DNA from: Oscillospiraceae bacterium
GTDB taxonomy: Bacteria > Bacillota > Clostridia > Oscillospirales > Oscillospiraceae
Assembly: GCA_017416685.1 (NCBI GenBank)
Contig: JAFQBN010000009.1
Location: 1 to 41,676, forward strand
DNA length: 41,676 bases
Direction of reading: 5' to 3'
The position numbers were made by a program, and so were the translations under genes. Below the pieces are notes generated by a model. The model had not been told where the DNA came from. It searched no databases and saw only the letters and a program-made list of their open reading frames with translations. This document shows positions 19,657 to 26,860 of this stretch, one piece after another (within the stretch, counting starts at the first letter, position 1; every line of letters starts with the position of its first letter).

Positions 19657-20157
19657 ATGAAAAAGAAATTTATCGATGAAAACGGCCGTCTGTTCGGCCT
19701 TATAAGCCTGATCGACGTAGCCGTCATCGCCATCGCCGCCGTTCTGGTGGGTGCCCTGCTGACCAAGGACTCCGCCTCCCCTATCGTCAACATCGCCGCC
19801 CCCATGGACAAGATCTCCTATGAGCTGACCATCAGCAACATGCCCGAGGGCCGCCTGAACAGCCTGAAGGTGGGCGAGTCCATCTATGACAGCGACAACG
19901 GCAATCTCCTTGGCACCATCGCCGATATGAAGGTGGAAGATTGCGTTATCTCCATCCTGAAGGCCGACGGCACCTTTGACTATGCCCCTGTGGAGGACCG
20001 TTACAACGTCATCATGACCGTTGAGGCCGATGCCATCACCGACGAGCGTCAGCACACTTATGTAAACCGCGCCAGTCTGGTGGCACTGGGTTGGTCGCTG
20101 AATATCCGCACCCAGGCCAGCACCTTCAGCGGCCTGATCACCGCACTTGACAGATGA
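19657..20157 (+). CDS. DUF4330 domain protein, copy 2
   Basis: A 166-residue protein with the typical DUF4330 start (FIDENGRLFGLISLIDVAVI), one membrane helix (about 16-34) and an outer domain without Cys pairs. The ATG at 19657 has AAAGGGG upstream; the stop overlaps the next start (ATGA). It shares layout but little plain sequence with copy 1, so the two probably form an old duplicated pair that works together. Function unknown. Confidence 0.85.
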   Translation: MKKKFIDENGRLFGLISLIDVAVIAIAAVLVGALLTKDSASPIVNIAAPMDKISYELTISNMPEGRLNSLKVGESIYDSDNGNLLGTIADMKVEDCVISILKADGTFDYAPVEDRYNVIMTVEADAITDERQHTYVNRASLVALGWSLNIRTQASTFSGLITALDR

Positions 20158-22367
20158 GCAAGCGCATTTTAATGGTCACAATGGGGTTGGACATCGGCGG
20201 CGCCGAGACCCACATTGTAGAGCTGGCCAAACAGCTCAAGGTCATGGGGCATGACGTCGCCGTGGTATCCAACGGCGGCGTCTACGTGGATGAGATCACC
20301 GCCGCCGGCATCCGCCACCACAGCGCCCCTCTGAACCGCCGCAGTATTCCCTGCATGCTGCGCTCCCTCGTGGCTCTGCGCCGTGTCATCCGACAGGAGA
20401 AGCCCGATGTGGTCCATGCCCATGCCCGCATCCCCGGCTTTTTGTGCGGGCTGCTGCAACCGCTGATGAAGTTTCCCTTCGTCACCACCGCCCACTGGGT
20501 GTTTGAGACCGGCGGCGGCCTGCGGTGGCTGACCAACTGGGGTCAGCGCACCATCGCCGTGTCCGACGATATCAAGACCTACCTCATGCGGGAGTACGGC
20601 GTGGCGCAGGAGCATATCCGCATCACCATCAACGGCATCGACACCGACAAGTTCTCCCCGGAGGTGTCCGGCGCAGATGTGCAGGCGGAGTTCGGTCTTG
20701 ACCCCGCCCGCCCCATCGTGTCCTATGTCAGCCGCATGGATGCCGACCGTGCGCTGGTTGCCCGACAGCTCATTGAGATCGCCCCCCGGCTGGACAAGCA
20801 GGTGCCGGGTGTGCAGCTGCTCATCGCCGGCGGCGGCAACGTATTTGACGAACTGGATGCCATGGCGCAAAAGGTCAACACCGACCTTGGCCGTAAAATG
20901 GTCACCATGACCGGTCCCCGCACCGACATCAACCGCATCGTGGCCGCCGGCCACATCTTCATCGGTGTGTCCCGTGCCGCGCTTGAAGCCATGGCCGCGG
21001 GAAAGCCCGTCATCGTGGCGGGCAACGAGGGGTACCACGGCCTGTTCGGCCCGGAAAAGCTGGAACAGGCACGTCTGGGCAACTTCTGCTGCCGCGGTCT
21101 GCCCCTGTCCGAACCGCAGACGCTGCTGGATGATGTGGTACAGGCCCTGTCCCTGTCCGAGGATCGCCGTCAGGGCCTTGGTCAGTATGGCCGGCAGGTC
21201 ATCTTCGATTACTACTCCGTGCGTCGCATGGCGCAGGATTGTCTGGATATGTATCTGCAGGTCATCCCGCCCCGCCGGGTGCTGATGAGCGGCTACTACG
21301 GCTTTTCCAACGCCGGCGACGACGCCATCCTGCAGTCCATCCGGGACAGCCTGCAGTCCTCCGACGAAAACGTGGATATCTCCGTCCTGTCCAACGACCC
21401 TGCTCAGACCGGCGGCCGCTACGGACTGAAGGCCATCCCCCGCTTCAATCTGCCCGCTGTTTGGCGGGCGGTGGGTCGGTGTGACGTGCTGCTCAGCGGC
21501 GGCGGAAGCCTGCTGCAGGACCACACCTCCACCCGCTCCCTGCTGTACTATCTGTCCGTTATGTCTTTGGCCCGCCTGCGGGGCAAAAAGGTCGTGCTGT
21601 ATGCCAACGGCATTGGCCCGGTCAACCGCCCGGCCAACCGCCGCCGTGTGCGCCGTGCGGTAGAAAAGGCCGACCTTGTCACGCTGCGGGACCATAACTC
21701 CCGGCAGGAGCTGGAATCCATGGGCGTTACCCGATCCGACCTGCACGTCACCGCCGACCCGGTATTCTCCATGAGCTGGGCTTCCGATGACCGGGTGAAC
21801 GAAATCCTGCAGCAGGCCGGCATGTCCGCCGACCAACCCTTCGCCGTCATCTCGGTGCGCAGCTGGTCCGGCATGGCCGACTTTCCTGACCGGCTTGCCG
21901 AGGTCTGCGACCACCTGTACACCGCCCACGGCCTGACCTGTCTGTTCGTGCTGATGCAGCCCCATCTGGACCGGGACATCAGCCGTCAGGTCATCTCGCA
22001 GATGACCTCTCCCGCCCTGCTGCTGGAGCAGCCGCTCACCCCTGCCGAGATCATGGGCGTTATCGCCCGCAGCCGCCTGTGCCTTGCCATGCGCCTGCAC
22101 ACGCTGATTTTCGCCGCCCGGGCCGGTGTTCCTCTGGCCGGTTTGGTCTACGACCCGAAAGTCAGCAGCTACCTGTCCGAGCTGGATATGCCCTGTGCCG
22201 GCGATGTGGCCAATTTCGATGTCCGCACCGCCATCGGACAGCTTGACATCCTGATGGCAGATTACGATACCCGTAAGGCAGACCTGACCCGACGCTCGGA
22301 ACAGCTGACCCGAGCCGCCGAGCAAAACCGGCAGCTGCTTCTGGAGCTGCTGAACGAGATGCACTAA
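20154..22367 (+). CDS. csaB: Fusion: glycosyltransferase family 4 - polysaccharide pyruvyl transferase (CsaB)
   Basis: A 737-residue two-enzyme fusion. Residues 1 to about 370 are a GT4 glycosyltransferase (MGLDIGGAETHIVELAK, DVVHAHARIPGFLCGL, TINGIDTDKFSP, VSRAALEAMAAGKPVIVAG). From about 376 it is a CsaB-type pyruvyl transferase (LMSGYYGFSNAGDDAILQSI, DVLLSGGGSLLQDHTS, ARSRLCLAMRLHTLIFAARA, GLVYDPKVSSYLSEL). CsaB puts pyruvate ketals on the secondary wall polymer that holds SLH-domain surface proteins. No stop or shift lies between the halves, so it is a true fusion. Last gene of the murJ operon, with a 4-base overlap with the DUF4330 gene before it. Confidence 0.92.
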   Translation: MSKRILMVTMGLDIGGAETHIVELAKQLKVMGHDVAVVSNGGVYVDEITAAGIRHHSAPLNRRSIPCMLRSLVALRRVIRQEKPDVVHAHARIPGFLCGLLQPLMKFPFVTTAHWVFETGGGLRWLTNWGQRTIAVSDDIKTYLMREYGVAQEHIRITINGIDTDKFSPEVSGADVQAEFGLDPARPIVSYVSRMDADRALVARQLIEIAPRLDKQVPGVQLLIAGGGNVFDELDAMAQKVNTDLGRKMVTMTGPRTDINRIVAAGHIFIGVSRAALEAMAAGKPVIVAGNEGYHGLFGPEKLEQARLGNFCCRGLPLSEPQTLLDDVVQALSLSEDRRQGLGQYGRQVIFDYYSVRRMAQDCLDMYLQVIPPRRVLMSGYYGFSNAGDDAILQSIRDSLQSSDENVDISVLSNDPAQTGGRYGLKAIPRFNLPAVWRAVGRCDVLLSGGGSLLQDHTSTRSLLYYLSVMSLARLRGKKVVLYANGIGPVNRPANRRRVRRAVEKADLVTLRDHNSRQELESMGVTRSDLHVTADPVFSMSWASDDRVNEILQQAGMSADQPFAVISVRSWSGMADFPDRLAEVCDHLYTAHGLTCLFVLMQPHLDRDISRQVISQMTSPALLLEQPLTPAEIMGVIARSRLCLAMRLHTLIFAARAGVPLAGLVYDPKVSSYLSELDMPCAGDVANFDVRTAIGQLDILMADYDTRKADLTRRSEQLTRAAEQNRQLLLELLNEMH

Positions 22368-22403: not shown

Positions 22404-24241
22404 TCTATACAGTCGAAAAACATTTTTGTCTCTTCCGACATATCCCGCAGGCCGCAGTAGCAAAGCTGCTCGTACCACAATAGCCACTGCCGCTGTTCCG
22501 GGGGCAGATCTGCGGTGTCGGCGGTGATCTGTCCGTCTGCGGTCACGTAACCTGCGGGGCTGACCACCGGCATGATCTCGCTCAATTGGGACAGGAAGTT
22601 CATCCAGCCGCTTTGTGGCAGTCCGGCCATCTGTGCCACCTTTGCACCCAGAAAGTTGGAGCTGAGTACCACATCCCGCTGTTCCGGGATATCGTAGTTG
22701 GTCCAGATGAAAAAGGGAACTGCATACCGCTGCAAGTTTTGCTCCGCAGTGAGCTTTGCGCCTTCCTCCACCCCGGATATGGCATTGAGAAACTCCCGCT
22801 TCAGCGACGGCTGGTGGTCACCGAAAAAGACCACCATAGTGGGTTCCTCCACCTGCTCGTAATACTCGATGAGTCCCCGCAGGGCATCGTCACTTTCCCG
22901 CATAAGGGCAAAGTACTGCCGGGCATCCGGGTCCAGCTTATCCTGCTCCCCAGACAGGGTCACCCATGGGGTCAGGTTGCGCCATCCCTGTGCATATCCC
23001 GAATGGTTCTGCATGGTCACGTTGAAGATAAAGGCCGGATCTCCTCCCGCCTGTTCTGTCAAGGAAAACACCTTTTCATAGTTACAACGGTCAGAGATAT
23101 AGTTGCGCACACGCTCCTTGTCCGTCACATCGGTTTCGTACAGTTGGACATCAAACTCCATGTAATCGTACACCACAGGACGATTCCATCCGGAGGCGCG
23201 ATAAGGGTGAAACGCGGTGGTTTCATATCCCAATTCGCCCATCATTTTCGACAGCGCCGGGACCGTTTCTTTCACATAGAGCTGATAGGCCACGCAATGG
23301 GGCGGGAGAAATCCGTTGGACAGGCCGGTAAGAAACTCAAACTCCGTGGCCGCCGTTCCTCCGCCCGTAACGGGAGGGATGAGCCAGCCGCGGACGGTGT
23401 CCTCGTCCATACTGTGCAGGAATGGGGTCGGGTCTTCCGACACCTCCAGTCCGTCATAAACGGTCATATCCGCAAACGCCTCATTCATCACCACAATGAG
23501 ATTGGTCGGCCGCACAGCCTTTGTGTCTCCCTCCACCGACGGAAATTGCTCCATCAGCTCCGCCAGAGCGTGCCGGGAGTAATCCTGCGGTTTTTCCACC
23601 CGGCTGTACCGCAGGGCGATGGAGAAATTAAACAAAAAGCCGTTTTTCTGGGTGTTCCATTGCTGGGTGTAGATGTTCAGGGCCGGCAGCATATTGGTGA
23701 AAAAGAACGCCAGCGTGTAGGTCACTATGGAAATCGTCAGAATCGCGCCGCCCATACGGGGCAGCTTCTCCCGCTTTTTCTGCGCCGGGCAGACCGCCAC
23801 AAAAAAAAGATAGGCCACCAGCACGATAGCTGCTTGTTTTACCCACAGATCAGCCGTCAGGTCAAAGCCATCCAGCACATTGGCCGCTGTGCGCCAGCCG
23901 CTGATATCTGCCGGGAACAGGATCCGTCCCCGGAAGCGCAGCACGTAATGGTTGACCAGTCCAAAGGCAAAGCAGCTCACCGAAGCTGCCACTGCGGCCC
24001 TGCGCAGCCGGCCCAGCACCAGCCGCCATGCGGCGAAGATGATGTAGTACCAGACCATGTTGAATAGCAGCTGCCAGGACTCAAAGTCCTTGAGCAACTC
24101 GCTTTTGTTCAACAGCTCCACTGACCAGAAGGTAAACCACGGTCCAAGCAAAAACACCAGCCTGCTCAAAAAGCAGCCCGGTTTATGGCACATATCCTCC
24201 CACAGCTGTGGGAAATCCTTGCCAAATAACAGCCTGTACAT
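22400..24241 (-). CDS. LTA synthase family protein (sulfatase fold)
   Basis: A 613-residue protein with five N-terminal membrane helices (about residues 25-185) and an extracellular sulfatase-type domain. Catalytic and metal features: NEAFAD (253-258), the nucleophile Thr296 in GGGTAATEFEF, TMQNHSGY and FFGDHQPSL. LtaS enzymes move glycerol phosphate from phosphatidylglycerol to build lipoteichoic acid; related enzymes add phosphoglycerol or phosphoethanolamine to other glycans, so the exact role is open. GGAGGG precedes the ATG. It converges on the murJ-csaB operon and so sits within the same envelope neighbourhood. Confidence 0.92.
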   Translation of the reverse strand: MYRLLFGKDFPQLWEDMCHKPGCFLSRLVFLLGPWFTFWSVELLNKSELLKDFESWQLLFNMVWYYIIFAAWRLVLGRLRRAAVAASVSCFAFGLVNHYVLRFRGRILFPADISGWRTAANVLDGFDLTADLWVKQAAIVLVAYLFFVAVCPAQKKREKLPRMGGAILTISIVTYTLAFFFTNMLPALNIYTQQWNTQKNGFLFNFSIALRYSRVEKPQDYSRHALAELMEQFPSVEGDTKAVRPTNLIVVMNEAFADMTVYDGLEVSEDPTPFLHSMDEDTVRGWLIPPVTGGGTAATEFEFLTGLSNGFLPPHCVAYQLYVKETVPALSKMMGELGYETTAFHPYRASGWNRPVVYDYMEFDVQLYETDVTDKERVRNYISDRCNYEKVFSLTEQAGGDPAFIFNVTMQNHSGYAQGWRNLTPWVTLSGEQDKLDPDARQYFALMRESDDALRGLIEYYEQVEEPTMVVFFGDHQPSLKREFLNAISGVEEGAKLTAEQNLQRYAVPFFIWTNYDIPEQRDVVLSSNFLGAKVAQMAGLPQSGWMNFLSQLSEIMPVVSPAGYVTADGQITADTADLPPEQRQWLLWYEQLCYCGLRDMSEETKMFFDCIE

Positions 24242-24269
24242 GGTCCCTCCGTCACGGTTTATTTTTTAT

Positions 24270-24298
24270 AGCATACCCCCTCCCCGCCTTTTTTGCAA
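24270..24298 (-). promoter_or_regulatory. Likely promoter of the LTA-synthase-like gene
   Basis: On the minus strand: -35 TTGCAA (24293-24298), 17-bp spacer, -10 TATGCT (24270-24275). Confidence 0.6.
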
Positions 24299-24313
24299 GC
24301 GCCGCGTTTATAC

Positions 24314-24339
24314 ATGAATATTCATCGAATTATGCATAA
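24314..24339. promoter_or_regulatory. Two adjacent palindromes, possible operator
   Basis: ATGAATATTCAT (24314-24325) and TTATGCATAA (24330-24339) are perfect palindromes with centres 15 bp apart, in the gap between the divergent LTA-synthase-like and ABC transporter genes. The look is that of an ArgR-type or other dimeric repressor site, but they lie about 70 bp before the transporter -35 and about 16 bp before the minus-strand -35. Confidence 0.4.
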
Positions 24340-24408
24340 ATGCCTGATAAATACAGTTTAAAAAAGCTTTTCCCATGGGTTTTTGTGATAATTATAAGTG
24401 TAAATCTA

Positions 24409-24437
24409 TTGACGGCATAAAAAAAAGGGAGTATAAT
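24409..24437 (+). promoter_or_regulatory. Sigma-A promoter of the amino acid ABC transporter
   Basis: -35 TTGACG (24409-24414), 17-bp spacer, -10 TATAAT (24432-24437). Confidence 0.92.
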
Positions 24438-24492
24438 CCATTCGTTATTCAAACGGCGGCATTTCCGCCGAACAAAAAGGAGAGTTATCATT

Positions 24493-25281
24493 ATGAAGAA
24501 GATCATTGCTGCTGTCATGGCTCTGGCCATGGTGCTGGCCCTGGCTGCCTGCGGCGCCCAGAAGGTCACCCTGAAGATCCTGGACACCGAGTACGCCATC
24601 GAGGACTATGCCATCTGCATTGCCAAGGAGAACACCGACCTGCTGGAGAAGGTCAACGCCGCTTTGGCTGAGCTGACTGCCGACGGCACCGCTCAGAAGA
24701 TCGTTGACAAGTACATCTCCGGTGTTGCTCACGACCTGACCTTCCAGGCCAACGCCGAGGGCAAGGATGAGCTGCACATGGCTACCAACGCTTTCTTCCC
24801 CCCCTACGAGTACTATGAGAACGAGACCATCGTGGGCATCGATGCCGAGATGGCCGCTGCCATCGCTGACAAGCTGGACATGAAGCTGGTCATCGACGAC
24901 ATGGAGTTTGACGCCATCATCACCGCTGTTGCCACCGGCAAGGCCGACATGGGCATGGCCGGCATGACCGTCACCGAGGAGCGTCTGCAGTCCATCAACT
25001 TCTCCACCACCTATGCCACCGGCATCCAGTCCATCATCGTGACCGAGGACAGCAAGATCACCTCCGTGGACGACCTGTTTGCTGACGGTGCCAAGTACAT
25101 CGTGGGCGTGCAGCAGGGCACCACCGGCGACATCTACTCCGAGGGCGACTTCGGTGCCGAGCGCGTGTCCAAGTTCAGCAAGGGTGCCGACGCTGTTCAG
25201 GCTCTGGTCACCGGCAAGGTTGACTGCGTCATCATCGACAACGAGCCTGCCAAGGCTTACGTTGCCGCCAACAACGGCTGA
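24493..25281 (+). CDS. Amino acid-binding lipoprotein with circularly permuted SBP_bac_3 domain
   Basis: A 262-residue lipoprotein: signal peptide with lipobox LALAAC (Cys20). The fold is that of polar amino acid binding proteins but in a changed order. Residues about 27-75 (LKILDTEYAIEDYAICIAKE, then LLEKVNAALAELTADGTAQK) match what is normally the C-terminal end of the family. The usual N-terminal part (ATNAFFPPYEYYE, VGIDAEMAAAIADKL) starts only near residue 94, after a linker. The chain ends with VDCVIIDNEPAKAYVAANNG, where normal members would go on into the segment found here at the N terminus. Ligand-site motifs (MGMAGMTVTEER, GVQQGTTGD) are intact. First gene of a three-gene transporter. 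Confidence 0.93.
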   Translation: MKKIIAAVMALAMVLALAACGAQKVTLKILDTEYAIEDYAICIAKENTDLLEKVNAALAELTADGTAQKIVDKYISGVAHDLTFQANAEGKDELHMATNAFFPPYEYYENETIVGIDAEMAAAIADKLDMKLVIDDMEFDAIITAVATGKADMGMAGMTVTEERLQSINFSTTYATGIQSIIVTEDSKITSVDDLFADGAKYIVGVQQGTTGDIYSEGDFGAERVSKFSKGADAVQALVTGKVDCVIIDNEPAKAYVAANNG

Positions 25282-25305
25282 TAACAACACAGTTTGTGCT
25301 TCAGA

Positions 25306-25337
25306 CAGGGGCGGAGGAAGTTCTCCGCCCCTGTTTT
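25306..25337 (+). terminator. Hairpin between binding protein and permease genes
   Basis: An 11-bp perfect stem CAGGGGCGGAG/CTCCGCCCCTG (25306-25316 with 25323-25333), loop GAAGTT, then only TTTT. Probably a partial terminator or RNA-end stabiliser that gives more binding protein than permease. Confidence 0.7.
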
Positions 25338-25368
25338 CCCGCTATCAACTATCAAGAAGGTGACTTAA

Positions 25369-26127
25369 TTGACCTGGTTTGAAACGATCAAGCTGGCCGT
25401 TCTGGCGTGGTTTGAGGACTTCAAGGCCGACTTCATTCTGAACTTTATCGAGGACAATCGCTGGAAGTACCTTACCACCGGTCTGGGCAACACGTTGAAG
25501 ATCACCCTGCTGTCCCTGCTGATTGGCGTAGTGCTGGGTATCATCGTTGCCATCATCCGCTCCAGCCACGACAACATCGCCCACGAGATGCGCCCCGGTA
25601 TCGGCAAGTTCCTGCTGAACTTTGCCAACGGCGTGTGCAAGGTCTATCTGACCGTGTTCCGCGGCACTCCTGTGGTGGTCCAGCTGATGATCATGTACTA
25701 CATCATCTTTGCCTCCTCCCGCAACGGTGTGCTGGTGGCCTCTCTGGCCTTCGGCATCAATTCCGGTGCCTACGTGGCAGAGATCTTCCGCTCCGGCATC
25801 ATGGCCATTGACGCCGGCCAGATGGAGGCAGGCCGCAGCCTGGGCTTTGGCTATGTGGCCACCATGCGCCACATCATCCTGCCTCAGGCTTTCAAGAATG
25901 TATTGCCCGCTTTGGCAAACGAGTTCATCACCCTGCTGAAGGAGACCTCCGTGGCCGGTTACGTCACCGTGCGCGACCTGACCATGGGCGGCAACATCAT
26001 CCGCAGCGTGACCTACTCCCCCTTCCTGCCCCTGTTCGCAGTGGCACTGATTTACCTTGCGCTGGTCATGTTCTTCACGTGGCTTGTCGGCAAGCTGGAA
26101 AGGAGGCTGCGTACCGGTGAGCGATAA
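25369..26127 (+). CDS. Polar amino acid ABC transporter permease
   Basis: A 252-residue inner-membrane permease of the His/Glu/Gln/Arg type. About five to six helices; the EAA loop is [20 protein letters not shown], and [14 protein letters not shown] is the family signature. The start is TTG at 25369, with AGAAGGTGA upstream and no better candidate. It overlaps the ATPase gene by 11 bases. With the lipoprotein (24493) and the ATPase it would form an importer for a polar amino acid, two copies of this permease making a homodimer because no second permease is present. Confidence 0.95.
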
Positions 26128-26860
26128 TGTCATTATCAGCGCCCAGAACGTGCAGAAGTACTTCAAGGGCGGCGAGATCAAGGCTTTGGACGGTGTCTCC
26201 GCCGATATCCGCCGGGGCGAAGTCGTGGTGGTCATCGGCCCCTCCGGTTCCGGCAAGTCCACCTTCCTGCGCTGTCTGAACCTGCTGGAGGTTCCCACCG
26301 GCGGCAGCATCCTGTTCAACGGTGTGGATATCACAGACAAAAAGGTGAACATCAACCGCCACCGCCAGAAGATGGGCATGGTGTTCCAGCACTTTAATCT
26401 GTTTCCCCACATGACCATCCTGCAGAATATGACTCTGGCCCCCATGCAGCTGCTGAAAAAGAGCAAAGCCGAAGCTGAAGAGAAGGCCATGTCTCTGCTG
26501 GAGCGTGTCGGCCTTGCCGACCGTGCCAACGCCTATCCCAGCCAGCTGTCCGGCGGCCAGAAGCAGCGGGTGGCCATTGTGCGGGCGCTGTGCATGGACC
26601 CCGAGGTCATGCTCTTTGATGAGCCTACCTCCGCGCTGGACCCCGAAATGGTGGGCGAGGTGCTGGACGTTATGAAGGAACTGGCCCGGGAGGGCATGAC
26701 CATGGTTGTGGTCACCCACGAAATGGGCTTTGCCCGCGAGGTAGGCAGCCGCGTGCTGTTCATGGACGGCGGCAAGCTGGTGGAGGAAAACACCCCCAAC
26801 GAGTTCTTTGCCAACCCCCAGAACGAGCGCACCAAACTGTTCCTGAGCAAAGTTCTTTGA
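26117..26860 (+). CDS. Polar amino acid ABC transporter ATP-binding protein
   Basis: A 247-residue ABC ATPase of the GlnQ/HisP type. Walker [11 protein letters not shown] loop [13 protein letters not shown], signature [15 protein letters not shown], Walker [15 protein letters not shown] and the switch His in [12 protein letters not shown] are all present. GTG 26117 is taken as start, AGGAGG (26101-26106) being 10 bases before; the gene overlaps the permease stop. Last gene of the transporter unit. Confidence 0.96.

Follow-up and report, generated by a model that had tools for sequence, protein, structure and literature searches.

The window, that is the whole stretch of 41,676 nucleotides analysed here (contig JAFQBN010000009.1 of the Oscillospiraceae assembly GCA_017416685.1), carries on its forward strand a gene for a lipid-anchored protein of the SBP_bac_3 family, in the following called P0001, with permease and ATPase genes of the amino-acid ABC importer type as its downstream neighbours (Table 1). 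The promoter-like site 5' of the gene is one of two found by consensus scan in 24230-25420, where 0.7 are expected. Between the genes for the binding protein and the permease, the stretch 25285-25350 folds at -31 kcal/mol (z -4.9; equalled by 0/200 shuffles) and contains a strong stem-loop, for which a terminator scan gave no terminator-like site and which may set an excess of the binding protein over the permease. Elsewhere in the window, a plus-strand gene at 20154-22367 encodes a 737-aa protein in which Pfam recognizes a family-4 glycosyltransferase fused to a polysaccharide pyruvyl transferase.

Table 1. Features of the locus, with the second permuted gene of the same genome in the last line.
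Feature	Position	Strand	Details
Circularly permuted SBP_bac_3 lipoprotein CDS (P0001, CP1 class)	24493..25281	+	262 aa
Lipoprotein signal peptide, residues 1-20, lipobox Cys20	24493..24552	+	From sequence; 6 residues separate Cys20 from the core
Moved segment, residues 27-75	24571..24717	+	phmmer, tblastn, model; forms the C terminus in canonical proteins
Linker, residues 76-93, from old C-terminal end to old N-terminal end	24718..24771	+	18 aa
Residues 94-262: canonical N-terminal lobe 1 part, hinge 1 and most of lobe 2	24772..25278	+	
Promoter-like site TTGACG-17-TATAAT, 5' of the gene	24409..24437	+	Consensus scan, 11/12 matches
Strong stem-loop between binding-protein and permease genes	25303..25336	+	Fold of 25285-25350
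Amino-acid ABC permease (BPD_transp_1, HEQRo_perm_3TM)	25369..26127	+	Profile matches
Amino-acid ABC ATPase, GlnQ-like	26114..26860	+	Start 26114 assumed; longest ORF from 26057
CP2 gene of the window genome, outside the window	G000:C33:59739-60506 (L219:1240-2007)		Own permease and ATPase

In searches of Pfam, NCBIfam and the PDB sequences, P0001 is matched best by SBP_bac_3-type amino-acid-binding proteins, and the Type I sugar-binding family is absent from the matches listed in these three collections. The family profile PF00497 (SBP_bac_3) scores 119.7 bits on P0001 against a curated cut-off of 26.4, split into two stretches, and in a search of the genome its positions 1-110 fall on 24772-25212 and its positions 97-130 further upstream, inside 24433-24717. 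Likewise, columns 166-218 of a profile of canonical proteins come before columns 1-169, residue 94 being equivalent to column 1, so that P0001, which departs from the canonical linear order, is to be regarded as a permuted relative and not as a canonical member of the family. By phmmer, chain positions 11-178 of AncQR (4zv1) align with residues 93-260 and positions 183-231 with residues 27-75, in swapped order. The canonical homologue L064 places its residues 29-198 on 24769-25278 (75% identity, tblastn) and its residues 199-247 on 24571-24717 (65% identity), two blocks that abut exactly, with gap 0 and overlap 0; at E up to 1 a third match is absent from the whole window, and no copy of the segment follows the stop codon. 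As L064 tiles P0001 without gap, overlap or third match, the core is complete, nothing is duplicated and the rearrangement is a clean circular permutation. With 262 aa, a single domain and each block present once, P0001 is not a tandem fusion of the GlnPQ type.

The moved residues 27-75 span the final strand of lobe 2, hinge 2 and the pair of helices with which lobe 1 closes. A chance resemblance was considered for them and is ruled out, since they score 91.8 bits with a profile of 76 canonical C-termini (identity at most 76%, median 65%, at least 37%), while the best composition-preserving shuffle reached 11.3 bits (3764 scoring out of 5000 made). The reading of the earlier note, a natural circular permutation of an amino acid-binding protein with the usual C-terminal segment directly behind the lipobox cysteine, a linker of about 18 residues, the normal N-terminal half from near residue 94 onwards and a chain that stops where the moved segment would be expected (at the L064 border 198/199), is borne out in all of these parts, and the coordinates given there, 24493-25281, are correct.

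The gene is under purifying selection. Within the moved segment, dN is 0, 0.009 and 0 against dS of 0.13, 0.43 and 0.24 in the comparisons with L033, L034 and L043, respectively, and four more distant relatives give dN of 0.11-0.15 with dS of 0.62-1.14 or saturated. A sequencing error or frameshift that hides a regular C terminus is ruled out by the downstream tblastn blank and by the preservation of the order in other genomes. It is exceedingly improbable that the permuted order stems from errors of assembly or sequencing or from breakage of the gene: although the majority of the listed carrier titles are metagenome-assembled genomes, the order recurs in two strains from culture collections, [Clostridium] viride DSM 6836 and Sporobacter termitidis DSM 10068, and in the one-contig genomes G278 and, by junction search only, G614, G642 and G761, with the reading frame open and dN well under dS. 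The certainty for the permutation and for its conservation is high.

A single-chain AF2 model of P0001 has a pLDDT of 91.1 and a pTM of 0.81, with block means of 85-98 over residues 21-80, a confidence equal to that of a canonical control. From about residue 88 to residue 262, P0001 matches 6q3u, 4zv1 and 1wdn, that is the bilobed Type II fold, and residues 27-75 are predicted to take in space the position which the C-terminal strand and helices have in canonical proteins. They might alternatively pack in trans, completing the neighbouring molecule of a domain-swapped dimer which the permutation would reflect or favour. In T. maritima ArgBP, whose structures are among the best matches of P0001, the C-terminal helix is swapped between protomers, and the 18-residue linker may permit packing in cis as well as in trans; however, the confidence of the single-chain model, also over the moved segment, and the observation that no sequence feature seen demands a dimer make such an arrangement quite improbable. 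Packing of the moved segment in cis would thus be the preferred reading.

Residues T70, R75 and D157 of GlnBP, which we take to be those that hold the amino acid, have by alignment their equivalents in T159, R164 and D249 of P0001; across a 33-row alignment of proteins with the same order, R164 and D249 are invariant, T159 is conserved to at least 90% and Cys20 is almost invariant. P0001 would be expected to bind an amino acid, and its function as a binding protein is predicted with good confidence. It had been noted before that the ligand-site motifs and the adjoining permease and ATPase are intact and that the gene looks functional and not broken, which agrees with the conserved residues, the downstream profile matches, the low dN and the confident model.

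For GlnBP, two reports delimit a large domain of residues 5-84 and 186-224, a small domain of residues 90-180 and a hinge of residues 85-89 and 181-185 (PMC7400645; PMC13229503). On this numbering P0001 ends at residue 171 and starts at about 173, the start being extrapolated from the alignment of its residue 37 with residue 183. P0001 represents the class CP1, and two representatives of a second permuted class, CP2, which starts and ends in lobe 2 past hinge 1, were mapped in the same way: L149, of the subclass CP2a, ends at residue 95, and L199, of the subclass CP2b, runs from about 112 round to about 111. One CP2 protein aligns with AncQR by its residues 173-266 on 9-103 and its residues 34-154 on 109-232. 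In all three mapped representatives it is thus the small lobe that is cut, at a distance from a hinge strand of 6 to 10 residues in CP2a and CP1 and of about 22 in CP2b, whereby the other proteins are assigned through the profile columns that they share with P0001, L149 or L199. The last profile columns cluster at 160-178 (CP1) and at 90-95 and 102-104 (CP2), three cut sites overall; between columns of about 46 and 160, no cuts elsewhere were found by the junction probe, which should in principle detect them. As the mapped cuts fall inside the small domain, both crossovers between the lobes stay covalent, lobe 1 becomes continuous and the anchor moves from lobe 1 to lobe 2. A version in which the cuts sit at the hinges and leave a single covalent crossover was withdrawn after the mapping on GlnBP. 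The median tether between the lipobox cysteine and the first core residue is 30 residues in canonical, 5 in CP1 and 7 in CP2 proteins, calculated over those that bear a lipobox (69/78, 77/78 and 43/47, respectively), with lipobox and start codon assigned by simple script patterns.

In the rearrangement that we envisage for P0001, the old N- and C-termini of an SBP_bac_3 protein would have been connected through the 18-residue linker, and a cut in lobe 2, some 10 residues ahead of the second hinge strand, would have created the new termini. With both inter-lobe crossovers kept, the ligand cleft should work as usual. Lobe 1 is turned into an uninterrupted stretch, and the lipid anchor is attached to lobe 2 by a tether of about 6 residues, where canonical proteins carry it on lobe 1 with a median tether of about 30. 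Taken with its gene neighbours and its conservation, P0001 very probably serves an ABC importer as a functional, membrane-anchored amino-acid-binding protein, and its circularly permuted chain probably arose via tandem duplication or fusion.

Permuted order extends well beyond this locus. Classification of 225 ORFs with the canonical profile gave 90 CP1, 49 CP2, 79 canonical, five tandem fusions and two unclear cases; the distinct proteins fetched are 78 CP1, two of which come from culture-collection strains, and 47 CP2. As the loci were fetched by their match to P0001, its junction or its family, these counts are not frequencies, unlike the counts in the genome samples. The full junction, old C-terminal end, linker and old N-terminal start, was found in one non-tandem ORF in at least 70 of 394 genomes of the order (around 18%), including the one of the window; 69 of the 70 hold a CP1 or CP2 ORF, and the remaining one, G253 (L210), is unclear, with a CP1-like order. 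At least five further genomes of the order have the full junction solely inside tandem fusions. In the class sample 58 of 391 genomes have it, with each of the 33 classified being CP1 or CP2, and in the phylum sample 5 of 398, the window's own counted, four of which belong to the same class; the carrier from another class, G878, is the only match in the three-genome sample of its class. The junction searches used E cut-offs of 1e-18 (order) and 1e-22 (class and phylum) on samples that overlap and were read by eye, and they would miss divergent families. The window genome, 98.9% complete, has two PF00497 genes, one CP1 and one CP2, and a search at E up to 0.001 gave no canonical SBP_bac_3 gene. 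Where an ORF has 1 kb of room, it is followed by a permease for 85/87 CP1, 41/43 CP2 and 74/75 canonical ORFs. In four loci the permuted domain is itself fused via its new C terminus to a permease in one ORF (L119, L151 and L180 in CP2, L201 in CP1), with the fusion in L151 supported by Pfam. The subclass CP2b, with its cut about one helix into lobe 2, comprises L117, L178, L190, L191, L198, L199 and L204-L209.

Phylogenetic trees were calculated after thinning by identity from 229 to 133 rows (a larger quick tree) and to 59 rows; 17 rows were removed ahead of a 94-row tree restricted to CP1 and canonical proteins, and 12 long or divergent rows, including the CP2 protein of the window genome, ahead of the 59-row tree. 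Permuted and canonical orders interleave in these trees. The 94-row tree requires at least six order changes, with four forced by strongly supported branches, and rejects a single clade of all CP1 proteins (p 0.0067), also without L021 and L031 (p 0.037); without L021, L031 and L063 a single clade is unrejected (p 0.058). With the three classes together, the 59-row tree needs 11 order changes, and AU tests reject a single clade for CP1 (nominal p 1.8e-87), CP2 (2.4e-4) and the canonical proteins (9.2e-5). The same holds with the columns of lobe 1 alone (CP1 0.0053, CP2 4.8e-5) and of lobe 2 alone (CP1 1.1e-4, CP2 9.2e-7). The rejection of single clades shows that the order has changed repeatedly within the family, through gain or through reversion, between which these tests do not distinguish. 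The phenomenon is therewith wider than a single gene, as a second permuted class exists and neither CP1 nor CP2 is one clade.

Topology is nevertheless mostly inherited: the closest other binding protein shares the class in 193/203 cases, and so does the closest other permease in 172/203. Order can also vary between close operons, since the canonical L064 and the CP1 protein L040 differ in order with 82% identity in the permease, 74% in the ATPase and 77% in the binding protein. Instead of several independent permutations, one ancient permutation followed by many reversions and shifts of the cut site could have produced this distribution. Parsimony and one-clade tests are blind to gain versus loss, the canonical L064 sits amid CP1 rows, and in the 59-row tree a CP2b clade is nested in a CP1-rich clade, all of which would suit such a history. 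On the other hand, a tree that groups L001, L044 and L050 without L064 is unrejected (p 0.233), so that reversion at this point is unproven; L063, with a junction linker that resembles a tether, is placed among canonical relatives (93/83 with L097 in the 94-row tree, weakly, 87/17, in the 59-row tree); and the CP2b-like L117 pairs with the same canonical L097 (96/95, 59-row tree). L063 and L117 look like fresh, separate events, and we consider a single ancient permutation unlikely.

How such a permutation would arise is indicated by five tandem fusions (L214-L218), which combine a permease with two or with three binding domains and in which the junction of old C-terminal end, linker and old N-terminal start is present, its linker measuring 14 to 18 residues. 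The likely route is that a binding domain was duplicated in tandem, or that two were fused, and that the outer ends were then lost: with the junction already in place, loss of the body of the first domain and the tail of the last domain would give CP1, and other trims would give CP2. In the 59-row tree, six CP2 rows (L184, L187, L188, L192, L193 and L195) and the tandem domain of L214 group together with support of 97/92, a grouping that is not firm in the larger quick tree of 133 rows, and the tandem domains are not near the CP1 clade of the window. None of the 225 ORF patterns has a single domain flanked on both sides by the moved segment; the duplication intermediate was therefore not caught, and duplication, held with moderate confidence, is the best guess. 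The CP1 gene L063:3842-4831 has as junction linker a 58-residue acidic repeat that by eye is like the N-terminal tethers of canonical proteins, as is expected if an old N terminus was joined to an old C terminus.

Among known systems, the canonical binding proteins GlnH, ArtJ, T. maritima ArgBP and AncQR (4zv1) are homologous to P0001 over the whole core and share its motifs and operon partners, while P0001 differs from them by the rotated order, the continuous lobe 1, the anchor on lobe 2 and the short tether. Fusions of the GlnPQ type (PDB 6h30; L214-L218) contain the same junction as P0001, but between two or three complete domains in canonical order, in L214-L218 together with a permease, whereas P0001 has one domain. 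Lobes have also been rearranged within the same family in the T. maritima ArgBP structures 6gpc, 6gpd, 6y16 and 7a99, which we take to be engineered single-lobe constructs, man-made dissections and not natural permutants. No solved structure in permuted order is among the best 60 of 285 PDB sequences that match the CP1 profile, nor among the 25 listed matches of one CP2 protein at E up to 1e-20; in the matches listed from both searches, it is the tandem fusion 6h30 whose PDB chain crosses the junction in a single stretch.

The closest precedent is TpMglB-2 (Tp0684) of Treponema pallidum, described as a natural circularly permuted glucose-binding lipoprotein, 'Type Ic / Cluster Bc' (PMC4990184). 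Like P0001, it is a naturally permuted, lipid-tethered binding protein of an ABC importer; it keeps ligand binding and closure, and its homologues are reported to occur mostly in treponemes and Gram-positive bacteria. In contrast to P0001, which belongs to the Type II amino-acid family, it is a member of the three-crossover Type I sugar-binding family. Its moved part consists of the first three strands of the N lobe, with 13% identity to the counterpart, compared with up to 76% (median 65%) between the moved part of P0001 and canonical C-termini. TpMglB-2 needs a fourth crossover and has both termini in the N lobe, while P0001 needs no extra crossover and has its termini in the small lobe. The family of P0001 is further set apart from the case of TpMglB-2 by having several cut sites and by having switched its order more than once. 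For permuted SBP_bac_3 proteins, no description was found in a search of mostly open-access literature. A natural permuted binding protein is thus already known from Type I, and the permuted SBP_bac_3 order appears undescribed in the literature searched. This accords with the earlier note, which mentioned similar proteins in gut Clostridia, now found in many sampled genomes, and knew of no description of the permutation; TpMglB-2 is of a different structural class.

The authors of the work on TpMglB-2 raised a possible adaptation to membrane anchoring (PMC4990184). With each mapped cut moving the anchor to the other lobe on a shorter tether, the present family fits this idea, but the shift may also be a by-product. 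It is a tentative proposal, to which we give distinctly less than an even chance, that SBP_bac_3 proteins of Clostridia are topologically unstable, switch repeatedly between the canonical and at least three permuted orders in otherwise orthologous operons, and converge on an uninterrupted lobe 1 and a short-tethered anchor in lobe 2, an outcome selected for the reach or docking of the protein at the permease. Confidence in an adaptive role of the anchor position as such is low. Permutation might instead be neutral, with duplication and trimming frequent, the fold tolerant and the position of the anchor without functional effect, a view for which the chances are only a little short of even. The close operons of L064 and L040, alike in permease and ATPase and different in topology, and the interleaved orders in the trees speak for neutrality, but the last profile columns cluster at few places, with none elsewhere by the junction probe, and the mapped representatives are all cut in lobe 2 and anchored there on a short tether.

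To our knowledge, natural circular permutation is known mainly from isolated, scattered examples. Here, a well-studied receptor fold is permuted in around 18% of the sampled genomes of an order (at least 70/394), beside canonical relatives. Two questions can thereby be put to the test: by what route permutations originate and become fixed in real genomes, and whether it matters where a Venus-flytrap receptor carries its membrane anchor. The family is a ready experiment of nature on the tolerance, and perhaps the use, of rearrangement by binding proteins, and its cut sites may guide the design of biosensors from this widely engineered class of scaffolds. P0001 is covered by Pfam and by most NCBIfam models as two stretches or with a partial profile, so that reliance on linear order can lead to errors in the domain boundaries, the binding-site annotation and the homology models of such proteins.
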